A DNA stretch of 23,986 bases. It comes from a virus. This document shows, one piece after another, positions 2,764 to 22,609 of the stretch. The DNA lies in IMG/VR virus record IMGVR_UViG_3300006166_000011, positions 1 to 23,986 of that record; one strand, given 5' to 3'. The position numbers and the translations under genes are program-made. The first letter of the stretch is position 1; the number at the start of each line of letters is the position of its first letter. Under the pieces are notes generated by a model that ran no database searches, was not told where the DNA came from, and saw only the letters and a list, made by a program, of their open reading frames with translations.

Positions 2764-2767
2764 ATCT

Positions 2768-5700: not shown

Positions 5701-8700
5701 AAGCATTACCTACACGAATGAATTGATCAGCAGTGCTGTCATTAGCAACATGAACTGTAGTTGCAAGAGGTGCAAAGTCTAATGTTCCTTCGAATAGAGT
5801 TGGGAAGAACTCAATAGTACCTGTAGTAATAGTAGTTCTAACTTGTGCAGTATTGGTTCCACCACCACCATTAATTTCAATGTCCTCTTCGAACTTAGCA
5901 TCATCTGTAAATCTAGATGTGCCATCAACAACCAGTGCTCTATCAAGTTCAGTGTTAGTTACATTAATACCAACACGTCCACCGTTAGCAGTAGAAACAC
6001 GTAAGGTTGCTTCATTCTCTGGTGTAGCAGAATCTCCACCAACCATGAGTGCATCAGTACGATCCTGATATGTTCTAGTAGCATCTGTGTTATGTGATGC
6101 ATAATCAGTGATCTTCTTACCACTAATGAATGCAGTACCAACAACATCTAAGTTAGCACGTGGAGTTGTCTTAGCATCAACGAAGTTTGTTTCGAAGGAT
6201 GCCTTATCAGATCTACCAACTGTGTTAATACCAAGTTTGTAATCACCAATAGCATCAGTCTCTGTTCTAAGTGCTTCAGCACCAATAACACCCCACTCCT
6301 TCCAATTGGAGTTAGAGTACTCAAGTCTAATGTTAGGATTAGTAGTAACCTCATCAGACCACATTCTTGGGTTCTGATTATTTACAGTGTTCTTAGTTGC
6401 ACCGATAGCAAACTGTAATGTATTAGCAGCAGGATTAAATCCATTTGATATAACCTGCCATGTGCCATTGAAATCATTATCAGAGAATCCACTGATTCTA
6501 AGTTCAGAAGCAGATGTAATACCAAGTTGCTGGTTAGTTAGTGAAACCCATGTAAGTGTAATAACATTAGTGTTATTAAAGGAGAAGGATTCAGGAACAG
6601 CATTACCAATTAATGTGTAGTAGTTAGAATAGATCCAACCAAGTGATCCAGTCTTACCAATGCTTCCACCCTTGAGTAGGAAGTCACCAGAATCAGGAGT
6701 ACCAGCATTACCATACTGAACAATCTGACTTGCATTAAATGCACCAGTTTGATCAGGAGTAATGTTAGAAGGTACAGCACCTACAACATGTGTCTGAATC
6801 TTGTATGCCTGACCATCTCTGCGACTATTGAACTGGAAAATTGCAGCGGAAATTTTATTCCTAGCAATGACAATATCACCACCAGTTTCGACATTTCTAA
6901 CGAACGCTGATCTGTCAAGAGAACCATCATCAATAGCAGGATCAACGAAGGAAGAAACTACCAACGCAGGGTTGTTTCTAACAGTTCCGAGAACATTAAT
7001 TAGAACAGGTGAGTTGAATGTACTTCTCTTATCCTGAGCCTCACCACCATTAACAGTGATGTACTCATTAAATGTAACAGGAGTATCAAACGTAGTAACT
7101 AGATTACCTAGTGTCTCGTCATCATCAGCAGAATCTTGTAATGTTGCAGACTCAAGGAATACTTCCTCACCAGTGATAGCATCAATCTTACGGTTACCAA
7201 TGTATAGGTCACCATTTGAGTTAAGACCAGTGTAGAATACAATACCACCATTCTCTTTCTTAGACTGAGCATAGAAGTCTTGTATCTCTGTGAGTACAAC
7301 CTCTTGACGTTGGGGTAGACCAGTTGAGTAGTTACCTGGACCAAAACCAAGATATTCAAATGTGTGGTTACCTGCTCTTGCGATAGATGGTCTTCGAAGT
7401 TCAACGTAGTATCGTTGATCTGCTACGACTGTACTATCACCAGCGATAGGAATTAATCTATCTTCAGATCCAGAAGCAGCGTTACCCTTCTGTGCTCTCA
7501 GTCTGTTATCAATAGAAGAAGAGACCTGTGTATAGGTATTGTTTCCGAATGCATTGTTCTTAAGTAGATCAATGACACTCTCTTGAGTTAGTGAATTCTT
7601 GAAGTCATTAACTCTTACAAGACCATGAACATAGTTATCAGCAGCAGAATATGACTGAGGTGGATCAACTAATGTTGCATCCAACTGCTGATACCAGAGA
7701 GGATCGTTCTTATAGTTTAGAGGATATAGTTTGCTGATAGGCTGGGAGAACTTGAAGTTCCTGAAGTTACCTAAGTTACCAGCACCTTGAGGTAGTGGTG
7801 AAATGTTACCACGAACAGCAGTTAGATAGTAAATACCATCTTGCTGACCATAGATACGTTTCTGAATCTCTTGTGTGTTGAAGACATAGAATGTGTCATC
7901 AATCTGACCAACATCTTCTACTGAATCAACATAGTATTGGATGCTTGCATCATCTTCAATAATATCACCTGGTGTGATAGTATAGATGCCAGAACCATTC
8001 TGTCTGTAATAGTATTCAGGATAACCTTTCTTGATAAGATCCTTAAGTACCAATGACTTACCAAAGTCAGCATCAGCAAGTAGATCAGCGAATGCTGTAC
8101 CTTGACTGAACCTTGTGTTATCGATAGAATCATAGTCAATCTTACCAACAACATCCTTAAGGATCATGTGCCAAGTAGTTGTACCTGGAACCTGTAGGAT
8201 AGCATGTAGATAACCATAACCAGTTGTATTACCAGACCATTCAATTCTGTTACTGGTTGTAGATTGAGTCTTACTAGCAGTGAAAGATCCACCTTGAGGT
8301 GCAGTAATCTTAAGTGTAGTAAACTTAGTATTAAGTAGAGCAGGATTAGTAACAGCCTGTTCAAATACAGTTAGTTCTAAGAAATCATCGGCACCCTGAG
8401 TAACATATCTACCAGACTGAATAGTCATGGAGATATAGTTCTGTGATGTAATAACCTTAGCAAACTGTGTATTGCCTACGAGATCCTTCTTGTATGGATC
8501 GTATGCTACTTCATCATTAAGACTGAAGTTAATGAAGTCTGCCTTAGTATAACCAATGTACTCATTAGATTGTACTGGGTTAGAGAAACGTGCTTTAGTT
8601 ACGTTACCAGAAACAGGCTTAAGGATTAGTTTCTGAGGTACTAACCTTCTAGTCTCGTCAGTCCTTGTCTTGATAGTGAATCCGTTAAGTGGATCTCTAA

Positions 8701-11700
8701 CAGACTGTAGGTACTGAGGTATAACATAACGCAAACGATATAGTCTATCATTAGCAGGTCTCTCATCCTTAATTCTTTCGAACCAAGAATCATTTGTCTT
8801 ATCAATACCATCAGCATACTCTCTGAGTCTCTTGATGATCTGCTCTGTACCATTATCATTCTCAACCTGTAAGTACCACTTACCATATATTATTGGGTTG
8901 GTATTAGGATTAACAAACGTTGGGTCATAACGCATTGGTGACTCACGCTTGTTAGCGAAGACATTAAAGTCGTAAGTACCTGGCTGATATGTTATTGGGT
9001 TGACACCGTTCTCTGAATCACTCTTAGTCTTGTGGATAGTGAAGACTTTCTCTGTTTGATACCTAGCATAGAAATACTTGTTACCTAACAGTCTACCATT
9101 GCTATCAGCAACAGTAGTATCACTAGCATATGCTGCACCAACTAGAGGTAAAGCACCACCTTCTCTTTCTCTAAAGAATACTGTGTGACCTGTAATATTA
9201 GAGAATGGAACATCAAATATATGAGGAACATCTGTACGGATGTTAGTATTGCTTATACCATCGAGTACACAAGCATACTGGTGTAGATCATAGTTATCAT
9301 CAAGAACAAATTGATATAGATCAATCTCTACGTCTGGATGTATATCTTCTACCTCAGCAGAATGTAAGTAGATACCAGCAGCAGCATTTTCTTTGCTGCT
9401 TGCAAGCATTAACTTAGTCTGATCAGTACCATTGAATGTAGTGGAGGTTCCATAATTCTCTGGCTTAGTGTTCCTTGCAGGAGCAATTACATAATACTCT
9501 TGGTTGGTTGCGAATCCATTAGGAAGTCTAACAAAACGCTTATCAACATCAACATAAGAACTGGTAGCAATATCATAACGTGGACGTGGAACCAATCTTA
9601 CTGGTGTACCTGTCTCAAGGTCATGTGGATTAGATCCAGCACCTTGTGTAAGGGTGAATACTGTTGCTCTAGATGATAATGCTGTAGACAACTGTGACGG
9701 TTCACTACGTGGAACAGTTCCCAATCCAGTTTGGATAATTGTGCTAATGTTAGAGAAGTACTGACGAATAGCATTTGCTTGATCAACACACTGTGGATAC
9801 GTTGTATTCTGTGTGATTGAATTGTTAGGTGTTGTAGTTAGAGTTGTGTATACTGCATTAGCTAACTCGAAGTATAGGTAAGAGTTAGTGCTAGTTGCGT
9901 TAGCATTAATAGAAGGACCAAACTCTAGACCAAGAGGAACAGGGTTTCTTTCAATGCTATCAAGATAACTAGCAGAGTTAATAGTTCCAGTAATTATCTG
10001 GAATAGAGTTGTGATTGTAGATGCAACACTCTGACAAGCACCATTAGAAATAGTTCTTGTTACACTATCAAGTGATGTTGGTGTTTCAACTGTATCAATA
10101 ACAATCTTGAATAGTGAGTTAAGTGTTGATCTTACATCCTCACAAGATCCAACAGAAGCAGTTCTTGTAACTCCACCAACTACTATTTTTTCCGATGAAC
10201 TGACGAAGGTATGAGCTGAAGTATCAGATGATACACCAACATTAACCGTGATTGAGGTAGCAGTAGTGCCAGTAATGGTGGGATCATTTGTAGATACAGG
10301 GTCGGTTGTACGTGGATATGTGTGCTGAGTAGCATTGTTATCTCTAGCACATGTGAATGTCAAAGAGTTGTCAATGATATGAACACTAGTTCCATTTGTA
10401 TAACTATGAGCACCAATGGTCAGAGTTAATGCACCAGATGAAGGATCATAAGTTGATCCAGTTACTGTATGCTTCTTACCAGATAATGTACTAGGATCTG
10501 TAATAGCATCAGTTACAATCTTAGTAAGAACACCAACAGCAGATCTCATATCCTCACAAGGACCAAGAGAATCTGTACGTGTTATACCTTGTAGTGATGC
10601 TGGATTAGTAATTGTACCAGTTAAGATAGCAACTAATGTATCAATAGCACTGAGTACAACGTTGCAGTCTCCATTGCTTACACCATCAGTGATGGTAGTA
10701 TTCTTAACCTGACTTAATGATGTATGACCACCAACAGTAACATCTACATTAGTAGCAATCTCTTTGATGATGTCACGTACTGCATTGAATGCAAAGATAG
10801 TTTCATTCTCAGATCCAGAAGCATGAGCACCAGCAACATAAAGGTTAGCAGCATCCCATACTCTATGGTTACCACCATAACCTGTGTTATGTGCAACAAC
10901 TTTAACTACATCCTTAAGATCATCAAGACAATCAGTAGAACTATAACCAGAACCCCATGTGTATGAAGGATACTGAGCGATCATTCTACCCAGTGCAATC
11001 TCTGCTGCAAACTCAACGTTAGATAAGATTAAGTCCTTAGCATCAGCATGTCTGTTACTTACAGGAGTCGCTGCGTTAGCAGTTATGGTAGTGTCCCTAA
11101 CCTGTGTACGTCCATGAGAACCAAGTGTTACAATGTTCTCATTCCTAGCGATTTGAATCATCAAATCACGTGCATGATTAAGTGCTTCGATAGTTTGTGC
11201 TTCTTCTCCAGCAACCTCTTCAACCATACCCTGTACATAGAGATCGGTCATTTCCCAAACTCTATCGTTACCACCGAATGCTAAGTTGTATGAAACTTCT
11301 TCTACGAAGTCTACAATGTCATCCTTACAATCCTGTTGGTTACCTGTTGGAGGAACAAATCCAGGATGTTGTACCAACATTCTCTCGTATGCTTCATCAG
11401 CAATGAGTAGTTTGTTAGCAACAACTAAGTTACGAGCATCACCAAATCTATCTGTTGGGGGATCAGCCTCATTAGCTGTGATACTCTTATCAAATACCTG
11501 TGATAATCCATGTGATCCAGTAACAAGAATCTTCTGGTTTCTGAGTGCTTGAGCAGCCATCTCACGTGCTTGCTCAAATACATAATTGGTTTCTTCTTCC
11601 TCACCAGCAACATGAGCACCAGTCTTATATGAATAAGCAGCATCCCATGTCTTATCATTACCACCGTAAGCAATGTTATCACCAACTGCTTCTAGTAGAT

Positions 11701-14700
11701 CAACAACATCATCAATACAATCTTGATTATGATACTGTTGGTTACCAGCAATAGTGAATACTTTGTGTATCGAATTAGTTACTGCACTGACAAACTTATG
11801 GAAGTAAGCACCACCAGTTTGAATAGCACCAGCAGATGCACTCTTGAACTGGTGTGGATATTGATCAGCAAGAGCAGCAGCACCAACATTAACAGTAAAT
11901 GTTCCTGATTCTTTCTCAATATTATTAGCAACTGCTCTAACAAATGTATGTACAGCAGTAGGATAATGCTTAACAGAATTAGCAACAGCAGCTACAAATG
12001 TATGTGGTGACTGTGGTTCAAAGTGTACACCATTAGCAACAGCACTCACAAATGTATGAGTATATCTCTGATTAAAGATAACAGCATTTGTTGTAGCACT
12101 TACGAATGTATGATCATACTGATCTGAAACAGCACCAGCACCAACATTAACTGTAATAGTTGTAGTTGTAGCATCCTTGATTTCTAGATCAGTATCGTAT
12201 GCTGGATCTGTAACTCTAGGATATGTGTGGTTAGTTGCATTACTATCCTTTGTACATGTGAATGTTAAGGAATCAGATGCTAACTTAATCTTCTCACCAT
12301 TCTGTAAGTCATGTACTCCAATGGTAAGAATCATATCACCACTAGATGCATTATAAGAAGCATTAGTTGGTGTGTAGTTGATTAGAGGAGATGCACCAAT
12401 GTTAACTGTGATGGTACCATTCTGTCTCTTAATGCCATTACCAACAGCAGATACAAATGTATGATTTGTAGTATCACTAGAGATTCCTACATTAACATCA
12501 AATGTATTAGCAGTCTTATTAGCAATCTTTAACCACCTTGAACTTGGGTAGTCAAATCCTGCCCGTGGATAATTTTTGGAAACTGTGTTACCATCAAGGT
12601 CACATGTCATCACCAGTGAACCGTCTGTAATCTGGATATAATCTCCATTAGAGAATCCATGATTGGTAACAGTCAAAGTAAGAACACCTGTCTCAGGAAT
12701 ATAACTTGCACCAGCAGCACTATGAACAGAAGCACCAATACTGTTAACAGGGATAGATTTCTCACCCGCAAATGGATCTATTCCTGGACGTGGATAACTA
12801 TGATTTGATGTGTTGTTATCTTTAGAGCATGTAAAGGTTAGAGAATTATCCTTAAGAACAATATTTGCTCCCTCACGAAGACCATGCTGACCAATAGTAA
12901 GAATTAAATCTCCAGTCTCTGCATTATAATCACCAGCAGTAGGAGTCCATGTCTGGTTATCTCCAGCTCCTCCAACATTAACTGTGATTGTATTTGCAGT
13001 TCTACCAATGATATTAAGTGATCTAGATGAAGCATAGTCACTTCCAGTCTGACGAGTGATAGCATCAGCAACACCACTTACAAATGTATGTGCGTCAGTG
13101 TTAGTAGACGGTGTGCCAGCAAGACACTGGAACTCAAATGTATTTGCTGATACATTAGAAACCTTAATCCACTCACCACTTACAGGGTCACTAGGACGTG
13201 GGTATGATTTCTCAGCAGCAGTACCTGTTGCTCCATTGAATCCACAACTGAATGTTAATGCACCATCAGTAATCTTAACGAAGTCACCATTCATCAATCC
13301 ATGATTGGTTGTAGTTGTAATAGAAACAATACCATTTGTAGGATTATATGTCGTACCAGTTGTAGCTGTAAGAGCTTTGTTTGCTGGACGTGGGTAAAGT
13401 TTGGTTGACTGTTCCTCATCCATCTGACACTTAAATGTCAATGAGTTGTCATCAATAGTAATTCCATCACCAACTGCAAGAGAATGACTACCGATTGTTA
13501 GAGTAAGATCTCCACTAGCAGGGTCATAATTTGCACCTGTTGGTGTAAACTTATTCTCTGTTATATCAGCAACAACAGCACCATAATCAGCAGATATAAA
13601 TGTGTGAGTATAATCACCACCAGTGATTACAGAATCAGCAAGACCAGAAACAAATAGATGTGTTGTAGTATCAGAAGACTTACCAACATCAAGTGTAATT
13701 GAATCAGCAGTAGTAGCAGTAACAATTACAGGAGCATCATATGACTTATCTCTCTTCTGAGAAACACCATTAGGAGTAGCACTTACAAATGTATGTGTAG
13801 TAGTGTTAGTAGATGGTGCAAAATTTAATACCTGAATAGCAAATGTATCAATAGTTACAGCAGAAACCTTAACCCACTTGTCACTGATAGGATCAGATGA
13901 ACGTGGATATGTGTGGTTAGTAGCGTTGCTATCTTGAGCACATGTAAATGTTAGAGAATTATCTGCTATCTTAATCCAATCACCGACACGCATACCATGA
14001 CCAGAGTTGGTTAATGTAAGGATACCAGAAGTAGGGTTATAAGAAGCATCAGATACTGTGTGTGTATCAATAGTTGTTCTTGGATATGCATGATTAGTAG
14101 CGTTATTATCCTGAGCACATGTGAATGTTACAGCACCATCAGAAAGTTTAACAGAATCACCAGCACTAACACTATGAGCACCAATAATCAGTGTCATCAA
14201 ACCAGTTGCAGGATCGAAAGCTGCACCTGTTGGAGTATGATTAACTAGAGGTGAAGCACCAACATTAACTGTAACTTGTGTGGCAGTAGAATTGGTAACA
14301 ACAGCACCATTAGTAATGATAGGATCAGTTAAACGAGGATAAGTCTTAATCTCTGAAGTATCACCCATTGCACAACTGAACTTCAATGAGTTCTGTGCTA
14401 TATTGATACTCTTACCTTGAGGAATATTGTGGTTAGGTATAGTTAATACCAAATCACCTGTTGCAGGAGTATATGTAGCAGCAGTTGGTGTATATGATTG
14501 AGAAGCACCTGCCTGACCAACATTAACCTTGAAGGAACTTGTTGTTGAACCATAAATTTCTAACCACTTACCATTAACAGGATCCTTAAGTCTTGGATAA
14601 GCATGCTCAGTAGCATTATCATCCATATCACATGTGAATGTAAGAGATCCATCAGCAATCTTAATTCTATCGCCGTCAGTGAATCCATGATTAGCAACTA

Positions 14701-17700
14701 CTAATGATAATTCACCAGTTGAGGGATTGTAAGAAGCATCTGATGCACTGTGATAAGTAGAACCAACAGACTTAACTGGTAAAGATGTAGTTCCAGCAGG
14801 GTCAGTAGGTCTAGGGTATGCATGGTCTGTTGCATTGTTATCTTTATTACATGAGAACTTGATAGAGTTACCAATGATCTTAATGTCTTGACCAGGCTCC
14901 AACTCATGTGGTCCAACAGTAACAGTAAGGTCACCAGTTGAAGGATTATAAGCTGCATTACTTACATCAAGATTACCTTGAGTTGTCTTACCAATGTTAA
15001 CAGTTATCTGATTAACAGATGAAGCTGCGATTGGTAGATCCTCTTGATATGCAGGGTCACTAATACGTGGATATGCATGTTGACTATTGTGACCATCCAT
15101 GTCACAAGTAAATGTCAATGCACCATAATCAATTCTTACACGATCATTAGCTTTCTTAATACCATTAGGATTAGCATCAATGAATGAATGAGTATAGTTA
15201 CCGCCAGTAGTAATTGCTTTAGGTATAGCACTAACAAATGTATGTGCAGTAGTGTTAGAAGATGTACCAACATCTAGAGTTACTGTTCCATCATATCTTG
15301 TTAAACCATTAGCAACAGCACTAACAAATATATGTGCATAGTTACCACCAGAAACTAAAGCACCAGAGGTAGCAGATACAAATGTGTGTAGGTAGTTACC
15401 ACCTGTCTTAACAGCACCTGCATCAGCAGACTTAAATGTGTGAATATATCCACCACCAGACTTAACAGCACCTGTAAGTGCAGATACGAAAGTATGTACG
15501 TCTGTAGTCTGACTGGAAGAACCAACATTAACTGTGATAGTATCAGCAGTAACACCAGTAATTTCTATTGCCTGATCATATGATCTGTCAATCTTCTGAG
15601 TAATACCGTTAGCAGAACCACTTACGAATGTATGAGCAGTAACGTTGGTAGAAGGAAGAACATCCAATACTTGTACTTCAAATGTAGTTGAAGTTACATT
15701 AGAAACTTCCAACCACTTACCAGCAACAGGATCACTAACTCTAGGATATGTGTGCTGAGTATTGTTGTTGTCCTCCATACATGTGAAGGTCAACGCACCA
15801 GTAGCAAACTGAACATAATCACCGTTCTTAATGTTATGAGCAGCAGTTGTGATACTCAACACACCTGTAGTAGGATTGTATGTTGTACCAGCGGCAGCTG
15901 TATGTTGTGCTGTAGAAGTTCTAGGATAAGACTTAGCACTCTGACTACCAACAGAGAATCCAACGAATACTGTCATTGTTGTTGCAGTGACAGAATCTAG
16001 ACCCAGTGTTTCATTACGGAATGGGTCAGTAGCACGTGGATATGTGTGCTGTGTAGCATTGCTATCAGCATCACAAGTGAATGTTAATGCATCCTGTGCA
16101 AATGTAATTGTGTTATTTGCTTTCTTAAGACCACTAGCAGTTGCAGATACAAATGTGTGTGCATAGTTTCCACCAGATGTAACACAGTTATTAGTTGCAG
16201 AAACAAATGTATGAGCTGTAGTGTTAGTAGATGGGATTGTACTTAGTACCTGAACACTAATTGTTGTAGCAGTTACATCAGTAATAGCAAATGATTTATC
16301 AGAGAATGGATCAGTTGCACGTGGATAAGTATGCTGTGTAGCATTACTATCTTCAGCACAAGTGAATGTTAGAGAGTTATCTGCAATCTTAACAGCAGTA
16401 CCAATAGTCAAACTATGAGCACCAATGGTAAGTTCCATTATACCAGTGGTAGGATTATAGTTAGCACCTGTAGGTGTATGCTGTACTAATGGAGATGAAC
16501 CAACATCAACTGAGAATGTATCTGTAGTAGCACTAGAAATTTGTAACCACTTACCGAATGTAGGATCAGATCTACGTGGGTATGTCTTAGTAGAAACATT
16601 ACCGTCCATAGCACAGTTAAGTGATATAGAACCTTCAGCAAATTTAACTCTATCACCATTACTAAATCCATGTCCAGCAACAGTAACAACCATAGCACCA
16701 GTTGCAGCATTATATACTGCGTCTGTTACTGTATGTGTAGAAGCAGGAGTTAAACTGTGTGATCCAACTTCAAGAACCAGTTCACCTGTGATAGGATCAT
16801 ATGTTGTTCCAGACGCTGCTGTCCAGTCATTACTACCATCATCAGTGATACCATTAGTAGCACCAGTGATAAAGGTATGTGGTACATTACCATATGTACA
16901 ACTGAAGGTAACTCCACCATCATCAATCTTAATTGACTCACCAACAGTTAGACTATGGTTACCAATCTTCAGTGTCATTTCACCCGTTGCAGGGTTATAT
17001 GAACCATCATCAACGTTGTGACTTACTATAGGTGATTGACCTACATCAATTGTGATTGTTGTAGCAGAAGCAGCTGTAATTTCAATAGAAGTATCATTTA
17101 CAGGGTCAGTAATACGAGGATAAGACTTAGTACTATAGTTACCATCCATCTCACAAGTAAACTTGAGAGAATTAGGATCAACCTTAATACTTGTGCCAGC
17201 AGCCAAACTGTGACTACCTATAGTCAATTCCATCAATCCTGTATTAGGATCATAGGTAGCATTAGTTGGTGTAAACGATACGATAGGAGATTTGCCAACA
17301 TTAACTGTAACATCACCACCTCTCTTAGAGATAGCATGTTCAGCTGCTCTCTTAAATGTGTGAGCAGACTGTGGTAAATTCTTAACTGAATTTGTTAATG
17401 CAGATACAAATGTATGTGCTGACTGAGGCTTATATTCAACAGCATTAGTAAGAGCAGATACGAATGTATGAGCATATCTGTTAGCAGGATCAGCATCGAA
17501 ACCAACATTAATTGTCAGTGTTCCATCTTGCTTCAAGATACCATTAGCAGAAGCAGATACAAATGTATGTACTGAGTTATCAGTAGAAGAACCAACATTA
17601 ATAGTGAAGGTATCAGTACTTGCTGCTAAGATAGGAACCCATCTGTTGCTGAGTGAATCAAAGTTAGTACGTGGATATGTCTTCTGACTTACGTTACCAT

Positions 17701-20700
17701 CAAGTTCACATGTTAATGTAATAGAATTATCTGCTACCTGAATATAATCTCCTGGTGAGAATCCATGACTAGCAACGGTAACAACCATAACACCACTCGA
17801 AGGTGTGTATGCAACATTAGTTGCTGTATGTTGTGAAGAACCAACTGCTGTAATAGCAATAGACTTACCAGCATAAGGGTCAGTACCAGGACGAGGATAT
17901 GAATGCTGAGTTGCACCAGCATCTTTATCACAAGTGAATGTTAATGAATTATCTTTTAATGTAATATCAGTACCAACACGGAATCCATGCTGACCAACAG
18001 TAAGAACCATGTCACCATTGTTCTCATTATATGTTGCACCAGTAGGAGTTATGAACTTATTAGAACCAGCAGCACCTACATTAATAGTAAACTTACCTGT
18101 CTCAACTGATGTAATTGGAAGAGATCTTCCAGAAGCTTTGTCTAGGTTTGCACGTGGATATGACTGAGCAACTTGGTTGCCATCCATTGTACATGTGAAT
18201 GATAGAGCACCGTCATCCATGACGATTCCATCACCAACAGATAGATTATGAGCACCAACAGTAAGTTCTAAGTCACCTGTTGCAGGGTTATAAGAAGCAT
18301 CAGTTGGAGTAAACTCTACGTTAGCTCCAGCATCTGCAATCTGAACCTTGAATGAATTTGGTGCAACATCATAAACAGATAACCAATCACCAGAATAAGG
18401 ATCAGTTGCACGTGGATACTTATGCTCTGAAGCATTGTTATCCATACCACATGTAAACGTTAGAGAATCCTTAGCAATCTTGATAAGTTCTCCGTTTGTT
18501 AATCCATGATTAGCAACAGTAAATTCAAGTACACCTGTAGATGGATTGTAGTTAGCATTAGTGATATCATAGTCACCACCAACACCAATAACTTCTAGTC
18601 CAGTGTTATATGCAGGATCTGTTGTACGTGGATATGTGTGGTTAGAACTATTTCCGTCCATACCACATGTAAATGTTAATGCATTGTCTGCAAATTTAAT
18701 ACTCTCACCAACATCAATATCATGGTTTCCATCGACACTAACTGTTAATTGACCACTTGCAGGATCATATGTAGCATTAGTAATATCATATGTTACTGCT
18801 GGTGTTGTACCAACATGTGCTTCAAAAGTATTATTGGATGTATTTGTAATAGTAACCCACTTACCACTAGCAGGATCACTCTTACGTGGATATGAATGCT
18901 GAGTAGCATTGTTATCCATTGCACAAGTAAAGACTAATGCATCATCGTCAAGTCTAATCTTATCTCCATCAGAGAATCCATGATTAGTAAGGGTAAATTC
19001 CATTGTACCCTTGTCAGGATTATATCCAGCACCAGTAACTGTGTGCTTGGAACCATCCGCTACAATCTTAACAGAATTCTGATATGCTGGATCAGATGAA
19101 CGAGGATAAACATGCTGAGTAGCATGACTATCTTGATCACATGTAAATGTGAATGCTCCGTCTTCTATTCTTACATTCTGACCTTCACTCAATGCATGGT
19201 TTGGAATAGTTGCAGTCAACAAACCAGTAGCAGGAGCATATGCAGCATTAGTTACATCATGTCCAATTAGAAGAGACTTACCAACATCAACACTGAATGT
19301 ATTTGTATCTGCCTCAGCAACTTCAATCCACTTATCACTAATAGGATCACTAGATCTAGGATATGTGTGAGTAGAACCATTGCCGTCCATTGAGCATGTC
19401 AATGTCAATGATTCATCTTCAATTAGTACTTTACTACCAGCAGCTAATCCATGAGCATTAGATGTAATAGTCAACCAACCAGTTTCAGGATTATATGCTG
19501 CACTCGAAGCAGTAATTGAAGTTGGACCAAGTAGACCATGACTAGCAATATCAAGAGTCAGATCACCAGTTGCAGGATCATACTCAGCATCAGTTGGTGT
19601 ATACTCAGCAGTAGAAGAACGAACCAACATTCTGTCTACAGATTCAGCAGCAATCAATTGCTTGTTAGCAAGTATTAGATTACGTGCGTCACCATTTCTG
19701 TCATTAACCACTTCAGGTGGTTCATAAGTGACAGTATTGTCATATGTTTGAGTTAGACCATGACTACCAAAGATAAATGACTTCTCATTACGCATGATCT
19801 GCACAGACATATCTCTGGCATATTCAATCGCACGAATAGTCTCGTCTTTCTTCTGTGAAATATACTGAACTGCACCACTATCATAGTGATATGCAGCATC
19901 CCATACTTCATCGTTACCACCATAAGCAGTATTCTCAGCAATTGCTTCAACGATGTCAACTAAGTCATCCCTGCAATCCTGTGGACCATATCCTGCTGGT
20001 GAAGTGTAGGATGGAAAGTCCAACACCATTCTATCAAATGCTTCAGCAGCAATGAATAGTTTGTTTGAAAGTAATAGGTTTCTAGCATCACCATTACGAT
20101 CAGATATTACCTTCTTGGTAGAGTATGTTGCTTTTTGTCCAAGTTCGATCTCTGTTGTAGAAACAACACTCTTAACGTATGTGTTATTTGGAATAACAGG
20201 AGATGCAGGACGTGTAGCACCAACATTAAGTTTATTATCTGTAAACTGACTAGGATCATAGTCAGCAACTGTCATACCCTGAACAATACCACTTGTGTCA
20301 CCAACGTCAACAATTGCAGTTCCAGCAGTAGTTTCTGATCCAGTACGTAGGTATGTGAAATTACGTATAGATGCAATAGCAAGATCTCTAGCGTAATCGT
20401 AACCTTCTAGAGTTTCAGTAAGTTCTGCTGTAATGTAAGATAGGTTATTACCAACGTAATATGACTCAGCAGACTGAATAGTATTAATGTTACCACCAAG
20501 TCTTAAATCCTGAATAGTAGCATCAAGAAGATATCCAATGTCACGACGACACTTAACAATATCAATACCTTCTCTATCTAAGAGGTATGGATACTTATTA
20601 GTGATATATCCATATGCCTCATGAGAAATAAATTCTTTATTAGCTTCAATAAGATCAGCAGCATCTAGATCCTTATTGTTAATTGTAATTCCAGTAGGAT

Positions 20701-22609
20701 TAAGAATACTTGCAGTAGCATTAAACTTCTTAAATCCATTAGGAGATAATGTAGCACTGAAAATATTACTACTTCCAGCAGTTCTAGGAATTAATTTTAC
20801 AAATAATTTTTCATCTGACCGTGAACCTATACGGAATCCGTCAATAGATGCAGCGAGACGTGTCTCAGGATTGAATCCTTCATCGTCTCCAAGATAAATC
20901 TTGGTCTGGTCTGATGCAGTGTTAAGATTTTTTGTAGCTGGAATATCAACTGTATAATAAGCATTCTTCTTGATATTTCCAGTAGTTGTGTCCACAATTT
21001 GTGGAGGAACAATACCAGTAACATATCCACCCTTATCCTGTGCATAGGCATAACCTTTATGACCAATAGCATGGAGTGATGTATTACCAAAGTTACTGTT
21101 AGAGTTGGTGATACTCATGTCACCACCACTTTCCATTAGGAAGTGATCAGCGAAACCAACAGCAAAGATACTAACACACTGAATGAATGCGTCTTCAGAT
21201 GCACGAACGTGGAAGTTTCTCCAGTCATCCTTCCAATATGCATCACCTTTGGTGTGATATGGAACTGTAGCAAATGCGTCTGCTAGTGATGCTTGGTTGA
21301 AAGTATTGCTATACTCGTCATACCTGATGAATGCTCTATCATCTTTCTGTAGAGACACACCAGTGTACTGAGCGATAACCATTGATTTGAAACCAGTGGC
21401 TTTCAAACCATTTGCCCAGATACCACAAATACCCCATGTCGAACGAATGGAGCAGTTAAAGACGTATGGAGATGCAGATTCAACAGAGTCAACCTCTGCC
21501 TTAACTACAGCATTAGAATCTAAACCATTAGAAGATGTATAGGTTGTGCCACTTATCAAAGAGGCAGTAGTACCAAGTGCAGCAACAGTTCCTGGTATAT
21601 TATAGGAGAACTTACGTTGATTAACTAAATCAATCTCAGAAATAGAGAATACACCATTAAGCTGATCATCTAGACCATTGTTTTCAATAGCAACGAACTG
21701 GTTCTTGAAGTAACCATGATTAACTTTACATGTTACTTCAACATTAATAGTTCCTGCTGGTGCAGAATCTGTAAGTTTAATACTCTCAACAGAACGAATA
21801 TCTGAAAGAGGTCCAACAATTCTAGTCTCCTGAATTCTATCACTGAATTCACCTGGATCATCAATTGTTGGTTGATATTGTGAAAATGCTTTAGCGACTT
21901 TCTGGTAGTACAGACCTAATTCTTCTTTATCTGCATACTCAAAAACAGTCAGTTTATGGTGAGAGAAGTTTGGTACAGCTTTTGCAGTCCAATCACCTTT
22001 TTGATAATAAACTTTACCAATTCCGTCAGTATTGTCATACAATGGTGACGAAGGTTCTAGATCACCATCTCTAATAGTGAATTGCCAGAAATAGCAACCA
22101 CCAGTTACATTAAAGATAGCAGAGCGAGCTTCTAATCTATCAGCAGGATCAGGAACAAATAATGGAGTAACAGACGTACGACGTAGATCATAACCAACAA
22201 GTGAAGAACCACGAGGGATTATGGCACCACCCTCAGTGTTATTAAACTTGTATAGTATGTTATCTGGATCTCCAATATCTAAATTAGAGTTATCAATCCA
22301 TTCATTAAGAGCTTGATCAAACGCAAAAGCGTCAATTCCATCAGCAGAAGCAAGACCTGGTCTGTTATCAATATAGTGTTTACCAGGCATCAACATGATG
22401 GTAAACTGGTCAAACCTGTCATTATCAGGTCCAGGTTGATAAGAGAATCTTGCGATCTCTAAAAATGCCCTCTGAATCGATTTAAACGGTCTGATAGGAG
22501 AGTTACCCCTACAATTAATCTCATCCGTTGCGTTAAAATCGTCGGGAGAGACGTACAAATACTTACCAGTTTTCGAACTGATAAGATTGTCAAGTCTTGT
22601 CAATGCCAT
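2768..22609 (-). CDS. Giant modular virion structural protein (tail fibre/baseplate type), 6613 aa
   Basis: One uninterrupted frame encodes a very long, Asn/Thr/Ser-rich, beta-type protein. The N-terminus (MALTRLDNLISSKTGKYLYV, then IRPFKSIQRAFLEIARFSY and MLMPGKHYI, residues 1 to about 650) resembles structural proteins I recall from marine cyanomyoviruses, possibly beta-helical. Helical modules with DARNL, GGND-WDAA and SHGLTQ motifs occupy about 653-1001 and 3618-3975. They are interrupted by the YPR/HTFVSA array (1002-3617). Short Cys repeats span 3976-4222, interrupted by one more array unit (4045-4144). From about 4223 the chain is non-repetitive, then fibre-like Gly/Thr-rich, ending in a domain with YLINAASGSNMVVYLPENAQ and the C-terminus LRGWWLIEL. 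There is no signal peptide, membrane segment or self-cleaving chaperone motif. A late promoter lies about 34 bases upstream; the Shine-Dalgarno is weak (TTGAG). The collar genes downstream suggest a tail-tip or fibre role. The structural call is secure; the exact location on the virion is inference. Confidence 0.88.
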   Translation of the reverse strand: MALTRLDNLISSKTGKYLYVSPDDFNATDEINCRGNSPIRPFKSIQRAFLEIARFSYQPGPDNDRFDQFTIMLMPGKHYIDNRPGLASADGIDAFAFDQALNEWIDNSNLDIGDPDNILYKFNNTEGGAIIPRGSSLVGYDLRRTSVTPLFVPDPADRLEARSAIFNVTGGCYFWQFTIRDGDLEPSSPLYDNTDGIGKVYYQKGDWTAKAVPNFSHHKLTVFEYADKEELGLYYQKVAKAFSQYQPTIDDPGEFSDRIQETRIVGPLSDIRSVESIKLTDSAPAGTINVEVTCKVNHGYFKNQFVAIENNGLDDQLNGVFSISEIDLVNQRKFSYNIPGTVAALGTTASLISGTTYTSSNGLDSNAVVKAEVDSVESASPYVFNCSIRSTWGICGIWANGLKATGFKSMVIAQYTGVSLQKDDRAFIRYDEYSNTFNQASLADAFATVPYHTKGDAYWKDDWRNFHVRASEDAFIQCVSIFAVGFADHFLMESGGDMSITNSNSNFGNTSLHAIGHKGYAYAQDKGGYVTGIVPPQIVDTTTGNIKKNAYYTVDIPATKNLNTASDQTKIYLGDDEGFNPETRLAASIDGFRIGSRSDEKLFVKLIPRTAGSSNIFSATLSPNGFKKFNATASILNPTGITINNKDLDAADLIEANKEFISHEAYGYITNKYPYLLDREGIDIVKCRRDIGYLLDATIQDLRLGGNINTIQSAESYYVGNNLSYITAELTETLEGYDYARDLAIASIRNFTYLRTGSETTAGTAIVDVGDTSGIVQGMTVADYDPSQFTDNKLNVGATRPASPVIPNNTYVKSVVSTTEIELGQKATYSTKKVISDRNGDARNLLLSNKLFIAAEAFDRMVLDFPSYTSPAGYGPQDCRDDLVDIVEAIAENTAYGGNDEVWDAAYHYDSGAVQYISQKKDETIRAIEYARDMSVQIMRNEKSFIFGSHGLTQTYDNTVTYEPPEVVNDRNGDARNLILANKQLIAAESVDRMLVRSSTAEYTPTDAEYDPATGDLTLDIASHGLLGPTSITASSAAYNPETGWLTITSNAHGLAAGSKVLIEDESLTLTCSMDGNGSTHTYPRSSDPISDKWIEVAEADTNTFSVDVGKSLLIGHDVTNAAYAPATGLLTATIPNHALSEGQNVRIEDGAFTFTCDQDSHATQHVYPRSSDPAYQNSVKIVADGSKHTVTGAGYNPDKGTMEFTLTNHGFSDGDKIRLDDDALVFTCAMDNNATQHSYPRKSDPASGKWVTITNTSNNTFEAHVGTTPAVTYDITNATYDPASGQLTVSVDGNHDIDVGESIKFADNALTFTCGMDGNSSNHTYPRTTDPAYNTGLEVIGVGGDYDITNANYNPSTGVLEFTVANHGLTNGELIKIAKDSLTFTCGMDNNASEHKYPRATDPYSGDWLSVYDVAPNSFKVQIADAGANVEFTPTDASYNPATGDLELTVGAHNLSVGDGIVMDDGALSFTCTMDGNQVAQSYPRANLDKASGRSLPITSVETGKFTINVGAAGSNKFITPTGATYNENNGDMVLTVGQHGFRVGTDITLKDNSLTFTCDKDAGATQHSYPRPGTDPYAGKSIAITAVGSSQHTATNVAYTPSSGVMVVTVASHGFSPGDYIQVADNSITLTCELDGNVSQKTYPRTNFDSLSNRWVPILAASTDTFTINVGSSTDNSVHTFVSASANGILKQDGTLTINVGFDADPANRYAHTFVSALTNAVEYKPQSAHTFVSALTNSVKNLPQSAHTFKRAAEHAISKRGGDVTVNVGKSPIVSFTPTNATYDPNTGLMELTIGSHSLAAGTSIKVDPNSLKFTCEMDGNYSTKSYPRITDPVNDTSIEITAASATTITIDVGQSPIVSHNVDDGSYNPATGEMTLKIGNHSLTVGESIKIDDGGVTFSCTYGNVPHTFITGATNGITDDGSNDWTAASGTTYDPITGELVLEVGSHSLTPASTHTVTDAVYNAATGAMVVTVAGHGFSNGDRVKFAEGSISLNCAMDGNVSTKTYPRRSDPTFGKWLQISSATTDTFSVDVGSSPLVQHTPTGANYNPTTGIMELTIGAHSLTIGTAVKIADNSLTFTCAEDSNATQHTYPRATDPFSDKSFAITDVTATTISVQVLSTIPSTNTTAHTFVSATNNCVTSGGNYAHTFVSATASGLKKANNTITFAQDALTFTCDADSNATQHTYPRATDPFRNETLGLDSVTATTMTVFVGFSVGSQSAKSYPRTSTAQHTAAAGTTYNPTTGVLSITTAAHNIKNGDYVQFATGALTFTCMEDNNNTQHTYPRVSDPVAGKWLEVSNVTSTTFEVQVLDVLPSTNVTAHTFVSGSANGITQKIDRSYDQAIEITGVTADTITVNVGSSSQTTDVHTFVSALTGAVKSGGGYIHTFKSADAGAVKTGGNYLHTFVSATSGALVSGGNYAHIFVSAVANGLTRYDGTVTLDVGTSSNTTAHTFVSAIPKAITTGGNYTHSFIDANPNGIKKANDRVRIDYGALTFTCDMDGHNSQHAYPRISDPAYQEDLPIAASSVNQITVNIGKTTQGNLDVSNAAYNPSTGDLTVTVGPHELEPGQDIKIIGNSIKFSCNKDNNATDHAYPRPTDPAGTTSLPVKSVGSTYHSASDASYNPSTGELSLVVANHGFTDGDRIKIADGSLTFTCDMDDNATEHAYPRLKDPVNGKWLEIYGSTTSSFKVNVGQAGASQSYTPTAATYTPATGDLVLTIPNHNIPQGKSINIAQNSLKFSCAMGDTSEIKTYPRLTDPIITNGAVVTNSTATQVTVNVGASPLVNHTPTGAAFDPATGLMTLIIGAHSVSAGDSVKLSDGAVTFTCAQDNNATNHAYPRTTIDTHTVSDASYNPTSGILTLTNSGHGMRVGDWIKIADNSLTFTCAQDSNATNHTYPRSSDPISDKWVKVSAVTIDTFAIQVLNFAPSTNTTTHTFVSATPNGVSQKRDKSYDAPVIVTATTADSITLDVGKSSDTTTHLFVSGLADSVITGGDYTHTFISADYGAVVADITENKFTPTGANYDPASGDLTLTIGSHSLAVGDGITIDDNSLTFKCQMDEEQSTKLYPRPANKALTATTGTTYNPTNGIVSITTTTNHGLMNGDFVKITDGALTFSCGFNGATGTAAEKSYPRPSDPVSGEWIKVSNVSANTFEFQCLAGTPSTNTDAHTFVSGVADAITRQTGSDYASSRSLNIIGRTANTITVNVGGAGDNQTWTPTAGDYNAETGDLILTIGQHGLREGANIVLKDNSLTFTCSKDNNTSNHSYPRPGIDPFAGEKSIPVNSIGASVHSAAGASYIPETGVLTLTVTNHGFSNGDYIQITDGSLVMTCDLDGNTVSKNYPRAGFDYPSSRWLKIANKTANTFDVNVGISSDTTNHTFVSAVGNGIKRQNGTITVNIGASPLINYTPTNASYNASSGDMILTIGVHDLQNGEKIKLASDSLTFTCTKDSNATNHTYPRVTDPAYDTDLEIKDATTTTITVNVGAGAVSDQYDHTFVSATTNAVIFNQRYTHTFVSAVANGVHFEPQSPHTFVAAVANSVKHYPTAVHTFVRAVANNIEKESGTFTVNVGAAALADQYPHQFKSASAGAIQTGGAYFHKFVSAVTNSIHKVFTIAGNQQYHNQDCIDDVVDLLEAVGDNIAYGGNDKTWDAAYSYKTGAHVAGEEEETNYVFEQAREMAAQALRNQKILVTGSHGLSQVFDKSITANEADPPTDRFGDARNLVVANKLLIADEAYERMLVQHPGFVPPTGNQQDCKDDIVDFVEEVSYNLAFGGNDRVWEMTDLYVQGMVEEVAGEEAQTIEALNHARDLMIQIARNENIVTLGSHGRTQVRDTTITANAATPVSNRHADAKDLILSNVEFAAEIALGRMIAQYPSYTWGSGYSSTDCLDDLKDVVKVVAHNTGYGGNHRVWDAANLYVAGAHASGSENETIFAFNAVRDIIKEIATNVDVTVGGHTSLSQVKNTTITDGVSNGDCNVVLSAIDTLVAILTGTITNPASLQGITRTDSLGPCEDMRSAVGVLTKIVTDAITDPSTLSGKKHTVTGSTYDPSSGALTLTIGAHSYTNGTSVHIIDNSLTFTCARDNNATQHTYPRTTDPVSTNDPTITGTTATSITVNVGVSSDTSAHTFVSSSEKIVVGGVTRTASVGSCEDVRSTLNSLFKIVIDTVETPTSLDSVTRTISNGACQSVASTITTLFQIITGTINSASYLDSIERNPVPLGLEFGPSINANATSTNSYLYFELANAVYTTLTTTPNNSITQNTTYPQCVDQANAIRQYFSNISTIIQTGLGTVPRSEPSQLSTALSSRATVFTLTQGAGSNPHDLETGTPVRLVPRPRYDIATSSYVDVDKRFVRLPNGFATNQEYYVIAPARNTKPENYGTSTTFNGTDQTKLMLASSKENAAAGIYLHSAEVEDIHPDVEIDLYQFVLDDNYDLHQYACVLDGISNTNIRTDVPHIFDVPFSNITGHTVFFREREGGALPLVGAAYASDTTVADSNGRLLGNKYFYARYQTEKVFTIHKTKSDSENGVNPITYQPGTYDFNVFANKRESPMRYDPTFVNPNTNPIIYGKWYLQVENDNGTEQIIKRLREYADGIDKTNDSWFERIKDERPANDRLYRLRYVIPQYLQSVRDPLNGFTIKTRTDETRRLVPQKLILKPVSGNVTKARFSNPVQSNEYIGYTKADFINFSLNDEVAYDPYKKDLVGNTQFAKVITSQNYISMTIQSGRYVTQGADDFLELTVFEQAVTNPALLNTKFTTLKITAPQGGSFTASKTQSTTSNRIEWSGNTTGYGYLHAILQVPGTTTWHMILKDVVGKIDYDSIDNTRFSQGTAFADLLADADFGKSLVLKDLIKKGYPEYYYRQNGSGIYTITPGDIIEDDASIQYYVDSVEDVGQIDDTFYVFNTQEIQKRIYGQQDGIYYLTAVRGNISPLPQGAGNLGNFRNFKFSQPISKLYPLNYKNDPLWYQQLDATLVDPPQSYSAADNYVHGLVRVNDFKNSLTQESVIDLLKNNAFGNNTYTQVSSSIDNRLRAQKGNAASGSEDRLIPIAGDSTVVADQRYYVELRRPSIARAGNHTFEYLGFGPGNYSTGLPQRQEVVLTEIQDFYAQSKKENGGIVFYTGLNSNGDLYIGNRKIDAITGEEVFLESATLQDSADDDETLGNLVTTFDTPVTFNEYITVNGGEAQDKRSTFNSPVLINVLGTVRNNPALVVSSFVDPAIDDGSLDRSAFVRNVETGGDIVIARNKISAAIFQFNSRRDGQAYKIQTHVVGAVPSNITPDQTGAFNASQIVQYGNAGTPDSGDFLLKGGSIGKTGSLGWIYSNYYTLIGNAVPESFSFNNTNVITLTWVSLTNQQLGITSASELRISGFSDNDFNGTWQVISNGFNPAANTLQFAIGATKNTVNNQNPRMWSDEVTTNPNIRLEYSNSNWKEWGVIGAEALRTETDAIGDYKLGINTVGRSDKASFETNFVDAKTTPRANLDVVGTAFISGKKITDYASHNTDATRTYQDRTDALMVGGDSATPENEATLRVSTANGGRVGINVTNTELDRALVVDGTSRFTDDAKFEEDIEINGGGGTNTAQVRTTITTGTIEFFPTLFEGTLDFAPLATTVHVANDSTADQFIRVGNASLHSNIWVGATPDTSTNISKIEIGGAYNNNESLSFTLIGTKSFKTKGDFQLGTARGLLDTVKLTSTAGTVEFFSGSSATSKLDFATNAAEITIAGKGGTTTIRNNLVVDSAARFNSDITLCGGFASYSFTAYRAQTGSTPFAHASGILGNNVFNSNVDLVDVIRLASNDENYNAVDTAGTGDWGGAVFQNTITQIAGTVEPLTLPALTGDQYYLPLKNRPYDSNGVQYFSEQDILLIDTDDSGGVKHPEFVRIVSLPRINVAPYWIVVERLPFGTYTATRSDHNDTTAIYKCIVQYNATWTTTTLDDTGAEENVYLSQFGGSIAIGDYIIIDREDTTSPANGVFDQGEMFKVKSLLSQVAKKLSIKNGCDTANEVTVFEVDSTSGNATIGTGGTTIVNGTFNLNGTCTTPYINATTNKKLTITNGSDITTFEVDTCTGDTTVGNHHGTAFMLAEQYGTSPAAYTKGVDVVHVYRHNPMSVISGGPATTTADNVVTATSNIEIQGNLTSFTKGDLVAIYTTNAIEIIQITDDPYTGSGGELLLPTSSNASYPGGGRGMEDTSASAFSIGANIVKLDKYDRTTTLLHDLPATQADRATALKARSPNTSDIRLEISLRDADLIAPKLDYVTLVRIGTEFFLPDSVDGTLDAFYAIKMPKQIREPNSVGTTPVKLFGGGSTTINQDLEVMSGNIRMYGSDGKTLVMSIANDDGHSGDGSLEDPKTDTAGLTLKGAAAFYGDLKIYYDNCQMHGVCSTETSFRVTNREGNILMGETFYQKGKVLSVESAIDPIFHIDNLGGAGTGGTEGPKDFKIYQNNAIDSFGIEKYWTAGGGRRHTYVAFDPTTGLGQQQDNPLQVNQNYLINAASGSNMVVYLPENAQTGDMIRFIELSGNLTYNTSLIIRALKANNVSVNIQGDGAGSRIASGAGQSLNTAWDSGELIIQTRNASFGLVYAGTVDVEGSASAQTIPPALRGWWLIEL
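9944..10684 (-). repeat. Short Cys-repeat family in the giant protein, four units
   Basis: Residues 3976-4222 hold four units of about 37 residues with the shape C-x-V/M-x-S-x6-L-x-x-I-x-T-x-T-I, then P-x-S-L and T-R-T. Examples are GDCNVVLSAIDTLVAILTG, PCEDMRSAVGVLTKIVTD, SCEDVRSTLNSLFKIVID and ACQSVASTITTLFQIITG. They are probably helical with a short turn at SL-x-x-x-T-R-T. The second unit is split by one YPR/HTFVSA insertion at 10178-10477. Unit boundaries are by eye. Confidence 0.75.
10178..10477 (-). repeat. Solitary YPR/HTFVSA unit inserted in the Cys-repeat family
   Basis: Residues about 4045-4144 (100 residues) match the large array in every landmark: HTVTGSTYDPSSGALTLTIG, then SLTFTCARDNNATQHTYPR, then TDP, ITVNVG and AHTFVSS. 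Upstream the host sequence reads DPSTLSG and downstream GGVTRTASVG; sister units read PASLQGITRT and PTSLDSVTRT without any insert. The element therefore sits within the SL-x-x-x-TRT turn of one unit. Confidence 0.85.
10685..11758 (-). repeat. Helical modules A3 (second half), A4 and A5 of the giant protein
   Basis: Residues 3618-3719 are the rear half of module A3, 3720-3851 are A4 (132 residues) and 3852-3975 are A5 (124 residues). Each module has GDARNL or ADAKDL near its start, a DC-x-DD segment, GGND/GGNH-x-VWD/E, a charged helix such as EALNHARDLMIQIARNE, and a closing SHGLSQ-type turn. The segments look alpha-helical, in contrast to the beta-type array beside them. Function unknown; probably a structural spacer or interaction module of the fibre. 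Confidence 0.8.
11764..12115 (-). repeat. HTFVSA cluster 3 (six tandem short elements)
   Basis: Six short elements follow each other at the C-terminal end of the array: HTFVSATTNAV, HTFVSAVANGV, HTFVAAVANSV, HTFVRAVANNI, HQFKSASAGAI and HKFVSAVTNSI. They are separated by 8-25 residues without a Cys/YPR core. The array stops right after the last element, at HKV, and the interrupted helical module resumes with FTIAGNQQ. Confidence 0.85.
15155..15496 (-). repeat. HTFVSA cluster 2 (six tandem short elements)
   Basis: The elements are HTFVSALTGAV, HTFKSADAGAV, HTFVSATSGAL, HIFVSAVANGL, HTFVSAIPKAI and HSFIDANPNGI. Several are joined by a near-constant GGNY linker (KSGGGYIHTF, KTGGNYLHTF, VSGGNYAHIF, TTGGNYTHSF), which points to recent tandem duplication of a unit of about 20 residues. 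The cluster is followed by a Cys/YPR core that lacks its usual N-terminal half. Confidence 0.85.
17325..17575 (-). repeat. HTFVSA cluster 1 (four short elements)
   Basis: HTFVSASANGI, HTFVSALTNAV, HTFVSALTNSV and HTFKRAAEHAI occur in a row; the last three are linked by KPQSA and LPQSA. The same PQS-type linker occurs in cluster 3 (HFEPQSPHTF), so clusters 1 and 3 appear to be related blocks. Confidence 0.8.
19607..20101 (-). repeat. Helical modules A2 (complete) and A3 (first half) of the giant protein
   Basis: A2 (residues 837-969, 133 residues) starts DRNGDARNLLLSNK and contains QDCRDDLVDIVEAIAENTAY, GGNDEVWDAAY, an ETIRAIEYARDMSVQIMRNE helix and SHGLTQ. A3 starts the same way (DRNGDARNLILANKQLIAAE) at residue 970 but breaks off after DRMLVRSSTA at residue 1001, where the YPR array begins. 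The missing portion reappears 2,616 residues later. Confidence 0.85.

Follow-up and report, generated by a model that had tools for sequence, protein, structure and literature searches.

The DNA analysed here (the window) is the entire IMG/VR virus record IMGVR_UViG_3300006166_000011, 23,986 bases long. A single open reading frame (ORF) without internal stop, 2768-22609 on the minus strand, encodes a protein of 6,613 amino acids that is best explained as a tail protein of a T4-like cyanophage. The helical modules of this giant protein belong to a family homologous to phycobiliproteins, and one of them, A3, is split in frame by a long array of beta-type units. Orthologues are found both with A3 split and with A3 uninterrupted, and the length of the array varies among them. 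It is quite probable that the protein has a scaffold of phycobiliprotein-like modules which, in one lineage, carries an in-frame array of beta units in the A3 loop as a length-adjustable shaft.

Split of module A3 by the beta array

Helical modules were located with a profile seeded with A2, A4 and A5. A1, A2, A4 and A5 were matched whole, and A3 was matched in two pieces, residues 970-1002 (profile 1-33) and 3618-3712 (profile 30-127). The motif DRMLVRSSTA ends at residue 1001 (window 19607-19609), FTIAGNQQYHNQDC begins at residue 3618 (window 11756-11758), and the 2,616 residues between them (1002-3617, window 11759-19606) constitute the inserted array. The first-pass annotation of this DNA had placed the break, the restart and the length of the array at exactly these coordinates. 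Counted by eye, the loop from DRM/ERM/GRM to QDC/TDC is 18 residues long in the joined A3, against 14-15 in A2, A4 and A5. The parts of the protein that bear on the split are as follows.

2768..22609, minus strand: giant tail protein ORF, Kyanoviridae 'short tail fiber / tail protein' orthologue (PHROG 4527; isolate-like gene order)
20324..20677, minus strand: phycobiliprotein-like module A1, residues 645-762, Cys 687 (module profile; PF00502 region score)
19724..20101, minus strand: phycobiliprotein-like module A2, residues 837-962, Cys 879 (module profile; predicted structure, pLDDT 91.5)
19607..19702, minus strand: module A3 N half, residues 970-1001 (module profile)
11759..19606, minus strand: beta array, residues 1002-3617, with 26 unit matches (1008-3490) and 18-residue H-x-F repeats (unit profile)
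11474..11758, minus strand: module A3 C half, residues 3618-3712, Cys 3631 (module profile; identity to intact A3s)
11078..11452, minus strand: phycobiliprotein-like module A4, residues 3720-3844, Cys 3761 (module profile; PF00502 region score)
10685..11056, minus strand: phycobiliprotein-like module A5, residues 3852-3975, Cys 3894 (module profile)
10235..10453, minus strand: lone array unit outside the array, residues 4053-4125 (unit profile)

An assembly chimera is an unlikely cause of the split, since five further contigs at 94-96% identity share it, with 25-26 units each. The 26 matches in the window are to a unit of ~74 residues, the first being only 25 residues long. The H-x-F repeats have 25 starts in the array and are spaced by exactly 18 residues in 12 of 24 cases. 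Within residues 1002-3617, 25 of the 26 unit matches have a Cys in an LTFTC strand, and the whole array holds 27 Cys. The first-pass annotation had recognised a real split, although it missed both the phycobiliprotein identity of the module and a 27th unit, which stands alone in degenerate short helical repeats after A5. This last unit has GKK and VGG on its two sides, an arrangement that closely resembles that of the single nested units in three related loci (L036, L040 and L043).

The array had earlier been called beta-type, and rightly so: in an AlphaFold2 (AF2) model built for L035, a natural relative with 10 units (A2 to A3, 16 sequences), helices are followed by strands with only 3-residue helical turns and then by helices again. 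The predicted local distance difference test (pLDDT) score of this model was 75 and its predicted template modelling (pTM) score 0.40. Two candidates for the fold of the unit were set aside as too weak to name it. The best solved matches were domains of phage endosialidases and of ubiquitin E1 enzymes, with Z up to 8.4, and the unit profile gave an odd match to the iota-carbonic anhydrase 7c5x at E 1e-4.

Phycobiliprotein homology of the module family

The Pfam Phycobilisome family, PF00502, has a curated cut-off of 22.2 bits. All four isolate orthologues scanned scored above it (S-RSM4 66.8, S-WAM2 57.7, S-PM2 44.7 and S-H9-2 33.4 bits), as did the IMG/VR relative L030 with 53.6 bits. A profile was made from an alignment of 114 modules, after the A3 C-half fragments of L037, L041 and L045 had been removed from 117. 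It matched 127 PDB sequences at E<=10, the best at 2.7e-5, and 59 of the 60 that were listed bear phycobiliprotein names, the remaining one being called a 'bacterial fluorescent protein'. At E<=1, 59 of the 114 modules matched PF00502, against 3 of 114 for the next family. An hhalign comparison with 138 antenna sequences from cyanobacterial genomes gave 95.1% (E 3e-8, 102 columns), and the reversed profile used as a control gave 0.6%. When four phage records were searched in six frames with PF00502, the best match fell in the giant module ORF in 4/4, one of them above cut-off; the same search at E 10 of 14 control genomes found matches in four, again with one above cut-off.

Predicted structures point the same way. 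Window A2 was modelled by AF2 with pLDDT 91.5 and pTM 0.85, and in searches with this model by Foldseek and by VIA, phycobiliprotein or phycobilisome titles made up 49 of the 50 matches listed in each, the other being 8u0f, a 'bacterial fluorescent protein'. A2 within the L035 model likewise matches phycobiliproteins, with Z up to 10.6. Towards the N-terminal X-Y hairpin, hhalign begins to match at template column 34, and the VIA ranges begin at chain residues 3-34.

The likeness might reflect merely a common four- to five-helix arrangement. The best VIA match for A2 (Z 12.2, 125 residues aligned, root-mean-square deviation 3.4) does not reach the ~13 below which the tool urges caution with helical bundles, Foldseek E-values for A2 were 0.04 or worse, and neither L062 nor window A2 alone matched PF00502 (A2 gave no Pfam match at all). 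This explanation is nevertheless very improbable in view of independent sequence evidence, namely the 33-67 bits reached by four isolate orthologues, the names of the listed PDB matches, the distance between the hhalign result and its reversed control, and the margin of PF00502 over the next family. The homology of the module family to phycobiliproteins is thus secure. What speaks against extending it to the window is that the window's own PF00502 scores, 15.9 bits in the A1 region and 18.5 in the A4 region, fall below cut-off, although PF00502 was the sole family found; for the window modules the homology follows by orthology from the family. The identification of the helical module as a phycobiliprotein homologue is new. 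Judged by title and beginning of abstract, no publication on phycobiliprotein domains in phage structural proteins was found among the matches listed. Since Pfam detects the domain in isolate orthologues, databases may well contain an automatic annotation for it already.

Both the PDB profile search and hhalign align a near-invariant Cys of the modules with the antenna Cys of a C-x-R-D motif, the residue that we take to carry the bilin. Among the 114 modules this Cys is present in 109 and an Asp at +3 in 112, while position Cys+2 is Arg in 51 and Asp in 60. In the isolates, 55 of 61 module matches have a letter at the Asp column, and in these 55 rows the Asp is present in 55 and the Cys in 52 (one Ser, two gaps), with Arg at +2 in 40 and Lys preceding the Cys in 40. 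A1, A2, A3, A4 and A5 of the window all keep the Cys and the Asp three residues after it. The insertion point of the array in A3 lies after the first long helical part and directly before this conserved Cys, in a loop that corresponds to the antenna B-E loop.

Orthologues with and without the array

Scans of IMG/VR with the two flanks of the array yielded 54 and 19 loci, on contigs that are partly shared. The first-pass annotation had named as decisive whether all homologues carry the array, and they do not: the A3 loop is uninterrupted at the same place in 15 contigs, at 68-70% identity. A split A3 with both halves is present in 22 contigs besides the window, the N half stopping at profile position 27-39. 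Unit matches within the split number 9 in seven of these contigs, 10 in six, 11, 12, 14 and 15 in one each, and 25-26 in five. Six contigs that begin inside the array (L066, L070, L071, L073, L075 and L076) were not scorable, and the distant loci L047-L065 fell outside the A3 scoring, L052 and L056 being used as outgroup. The joined A3 of the window is 66-77% identical to six intact orthologous A3s and 30-49% identical to the window's other modules; filled and empty A3 are therefore the same, orthologous site.

A tree was built from the region up to A2, and in it the split rows (22, from 21 contigs and the window), the empty rows (15) and the outgroup rows (7) each fall on one side of one branch. 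Two contigs were left out of it, L026, which ends at residue 1000, and L082, which is split with 9 units and is without A1 and most of A2. The junctions read SST/SSV on the left and HK[VTI]F on the right in 14/14 split sequences printed, and their positions are invariant in all 16 split relatives aligned. Fixed junction residues favour one event.

Units were not seen at the corresponding loop of a complete module in any of ten fetched isolate orthologues; five of the ten have units elsewhere. Two units are nested in the second loop (profile ~77) in ACG-2014e, ACG-2014i and S-CAM4, and S-WAM2 and ACG-2014h have theirs between modules or within degenerate helical repeats. Units of S-WAM2, L056, L051 and ACG-2014h had been considered as B-E-loop insertions, a reading rejected on the printed sequence, where they sit between modules or in degenerate helical repeats. 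The stretch that holds the S-WAM2 units is similar to the surroundings of the window's 27th unit. In L019, an empty contig, three units follow A3 and none lies within it. L036, L040 and L043 have one unit at profile ~83 inside A3, in the C half, so that the second module loop (profile ~77-83) takes 1-2 units in other lineages (L036, L040, L043; L002, L003, L004). L061 and L062 have 15 and 19 near-tandem module matches and no unit matches, and their ORFs are possibly fibres made mostly of such modules.

The empty state could itself be derived, the ancestor of the clade having had the array and a precise deletion in the empty lineage having removed it and made the module whole again. The tree places the split and empty groups next to each other and attaches the outgroup, at low support, between the split L038 group, the empty group and the remaining split rows, and 9-10-unit splits occur both in the L038 group and among the other split rows, all of which would suit a loss. 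Such a deletion would have had to be exact to a few residues, however. The window's other modules and cellular phycobiliproteins are uninterrupted, and in the ten isolate orthologues no unit was seen at the A3 loop. We consider loss rather unlikely.

The growth of the array was followed by chaining its units, in order, onto those of relatives. Window units chain twice onto the 9 units of L038, with 4/500 and 0/500 shuffles as good, and twice onto L078, with 18/500 and 0/500. Against L035, L015 and L029 the second chains were matched by 7, 7 and 4 of 500 shuffles. On these alignments the window array appears to be a 9-unit block present in two rounds, in which single units changed later. The record of L030, which has an intact A3 (192,818 bases), gave 0 unit matches, and that of the split relative L013 (202,519 bases) gave 28. 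A donor of the array elsewhere in the same genome was considered; the only L013 unit outside the giant ORF lies in an ORF of 1,369 amino acids.

The two halves of A3 may pack as one domain, to judge from the L035 model. Solved Sevenless and ROS1 chains align a short segment with both halves (model 147..1112 and 163..1107, Z 3.0-3.9), and the same chains align intact A2 (17..116 and 12..117). That the half-modules fold together, on which the first-pass annotation made its reading depend, has weak and indirect support from these shared low-Z alignments, beside the 66-77% identity to intact A3s.

Taken together, these findings suggest that a single insertion event placed a block of beta units in frame in the B-E-equivalent loop of A3, directly before the conserved Cys. 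The array would then have come to vary between 9 and 26 units through duplication of a 9-unit block and through single-unit gain and loss, by recombination between units, while the half-modules and junctions stayed fixed. Because both of its ends are anchored in one rigid module, the array could change in length without disturbing the scaffold. The modules would most likely form the scaffold of a tail fibre or baseplate protein, located on the virion, and the array a protruding, length-adjustable spacer or adhesive shaft on the virion fibre.

Several observations weigh against this explanation. Branch support is weak for the split group (69/40) as compared with the empty group (94/96) and the tree does not give the older state; because of the weak support it does not separate gain from loss, so that of the earlier idea of an array inserted into a loop of a helical module the nesting is borne out by split and empty-site orthologues, and the direction of change is not. 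The packing of the half-modules is judged from alignment ranges at low Z and not from coordinates. The best chain was weak for each of L035, L015 and L029, where 95, 72 and 59 of 500 shuffles did as well, and block duplication within the window's array alone is not significant, with 179/1000 shuffles as good.

Conserved cysteine, gene context and known systems

The T-type lyase family PF06206 (CpeT) was detected in 8 of 10 IMG/VR records, in all 8 at ~0.5-2.2 kb upstream of the giant ORF; the two misses are L012, which ends inside the giant gene, and L061. In nine isolates with the orthologue CpeT lies ~0.3-2 kb upstream in 9/9, S-H9-2 included; the tenth, ACG-2014i, has an annotated CepT gene at that place. 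The S-H9-2 match (L006, ~11842-12348, 129 bits) falls where the record lists no gene. G002, G006, G007 and G008, the records of the empty-site loci L030, L019, L034 and L023, have two neighbouring CpeT copies upstream, and one copy in G008 has an internal TAG.

Of 28 isolate genomes, 23 have both modules and CpeT, four have neither (P-SSM2, S-SSM7, S-CREM2 and S-CRM01), one has modules only and none has CpeT only. Fisher tests of modules against CpeT gave 0.0026 (22 genomes, E<=0.001) and 0.00024 (28 genomes, curated cut-off), values that are descriptive only because the genomes are related and were partly chosen with knowledge. Thus W01-W09 were taken for carrying the orthologue, S-CREM2 was picked after PMC10665884, and P-SSM2 and P-SSM4 after a passage of PMC2984593 according to which both are without cepT; CpeT was found in P-SSM4 despite that statement. 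P-SSM4, P-SSM3 and P-RSM3 belong to one genus, as do P-HM1 and MED4-213, and P-SSM7 is CpeT-positive by the curated cut-off only (28.6 bits summed, best E 0.0053). The lake phage DSL-LC03 (L211) has four module matches without a CpeT or CpeS match. A CpeS-family S-type lyase was considered as a replacement for CpeT in this phage, and no match was found. The bilin-reductase family was detected in 1 of 5 records.

These counts raise the question whether the modules are working bilin carriers, phage CpeT attaching bilin to the conserved Cys of the tail-protein modules. Conservation of the Cys (109/114, and 52/55 in isolates) and of the Asp (112/114 and 55/55), the joint presence or absence of modules and CpeT in the isolate genomes (23 and 4 of 28), the place of CpeT directly upstream of the giant gene, and a passage of PMC3037559 that describes phage cpeT, pcyA and pebS as genes of unresolved role would all agree with such carriers. 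Several points do not: DSL-LC03 has modules without either lyase match, S-CREM2 has an S-type lyase and no module match, a bilin reductase is present in only one of five records, and Arg at Cys+2 is found in only 51/114 modules, though in 40/55 isolate rows. The conserved Cys may, moreover, be structural, and T-type lyases are described in the review PMC10452541 as serving the Cys-153 position. On balance we think it unlikely that the modules carry bilin.

It is fairly likely, instead, that the modules represent a retired antenna fold that serves the virion only as building material, and that the link with CpeT reflects common ancestry of cyanophage gene content. The modules are tandem and scaffold-like, with up to 19 profile matches in one ORF (L062), the genomes counted are related, and the gene order around the giant gene is generally alike, so that nearness of CpeT is weak evidence. 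What a retired fold accounts for less well is that exactly the positions aligned with the Cys and Asp of the pigment site are highly conserved and that CpeT occurs without modules in 0/28 genomes. Should virion fibres built from a host antenna protein still be loaded with bilin by phage CpeT, for which the sequences leave a small chance, virions would bear a covalent pigment that might act as fold stabiliser, photosensor or decoy. Cyanophage bilin genes would then gain a structural substrate, and the array would be plugged in just before such a Cys.

Both flanks of the giant ORF match PHROG 4527, 'short tail fiber protein', with E 0 in a profile search; the isolate name 'short tail fiber' is record annotation. 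Upstream of the ORF are endonuclease V, tRNA-Asp and an HNH gene, and downstream two genes with collar domains, neighbours similar in kind to those of the orthologous gene in Kyanoviridae isolates, S-PM2, S-RSM4 and S-WAM2 among them. The source of the window is most likely a cyanophage, since its two longest relatives both carry photosystem reaction-centre genes (PF00124, 2/2). In the record of S-PM2 (L007, AJ630128.1), 16 tRNA features are annotated within the giant ORF, which looks like a coordinate error of the record.

The split module illustrates a way in which a virus may add kilobases to a surface appendage and leave its scaffold untouched, in a setting where intact and filled forms can be compared. 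The larger of the two points is that the scaffold of a giant cyanophage tail protein is akin to antenna proteins of the host, which gives unexplained pigment-attaching genes of phages a possible target. If the phage lyase has a phage-encoded acceptor, the question of the bilin genes would be testable on S-PM2, S-RSM4 and S-WAM2, which have both modules and CpeT.

Comparison with known systems sets the protein apart in several ways. The fold shared with phycobiliproteins (PF00502; phycocyanin, phycoerythrin) covers most of an antenna subunit, including the Cys-x-Arg/Asp-Asp motif and a Gly-Gly 18-19 residues later; unlike phycobiliproteins, the phage modules are strung in tandem along a giant tail-type protein, an array interrupts A3, and the hhalign match begins at antenna column 34, the N-terminal X-Y hairpin not being seen. 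The core-membrane linker ApcE (LCM) resembles A3 in having a phycobiliprotein domain with a long loop insert, the PB-loop, which we take to lie in the same B-E region. The PB-loop is tens of residues long, whereas the A3 insert runs to 2,616 residues and consists of repeats with another fold. In the passages that name the PB-loop, neither PMC12152189 nor PMC8437437 gives its place. PHROG 4527 of Kyanoviridae is the orthologous group of the giant protein, with similar gene order, but the ten isolate orthologues fetched are 3,504-4,759 amino acids long and have 0-3 unit matches, none seen at the A3 loop. Matches to the array occur in 370 phage records, many of them in gp7-type and structural proteins. 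By profile, the same unit is present in PHROG 1276, 5342, 701 and 18802 of other cyanophage giant proteins, of which 1276 is annotated without function and the other three with structural categories only; the window differs from these in that its array is nested inside one module.

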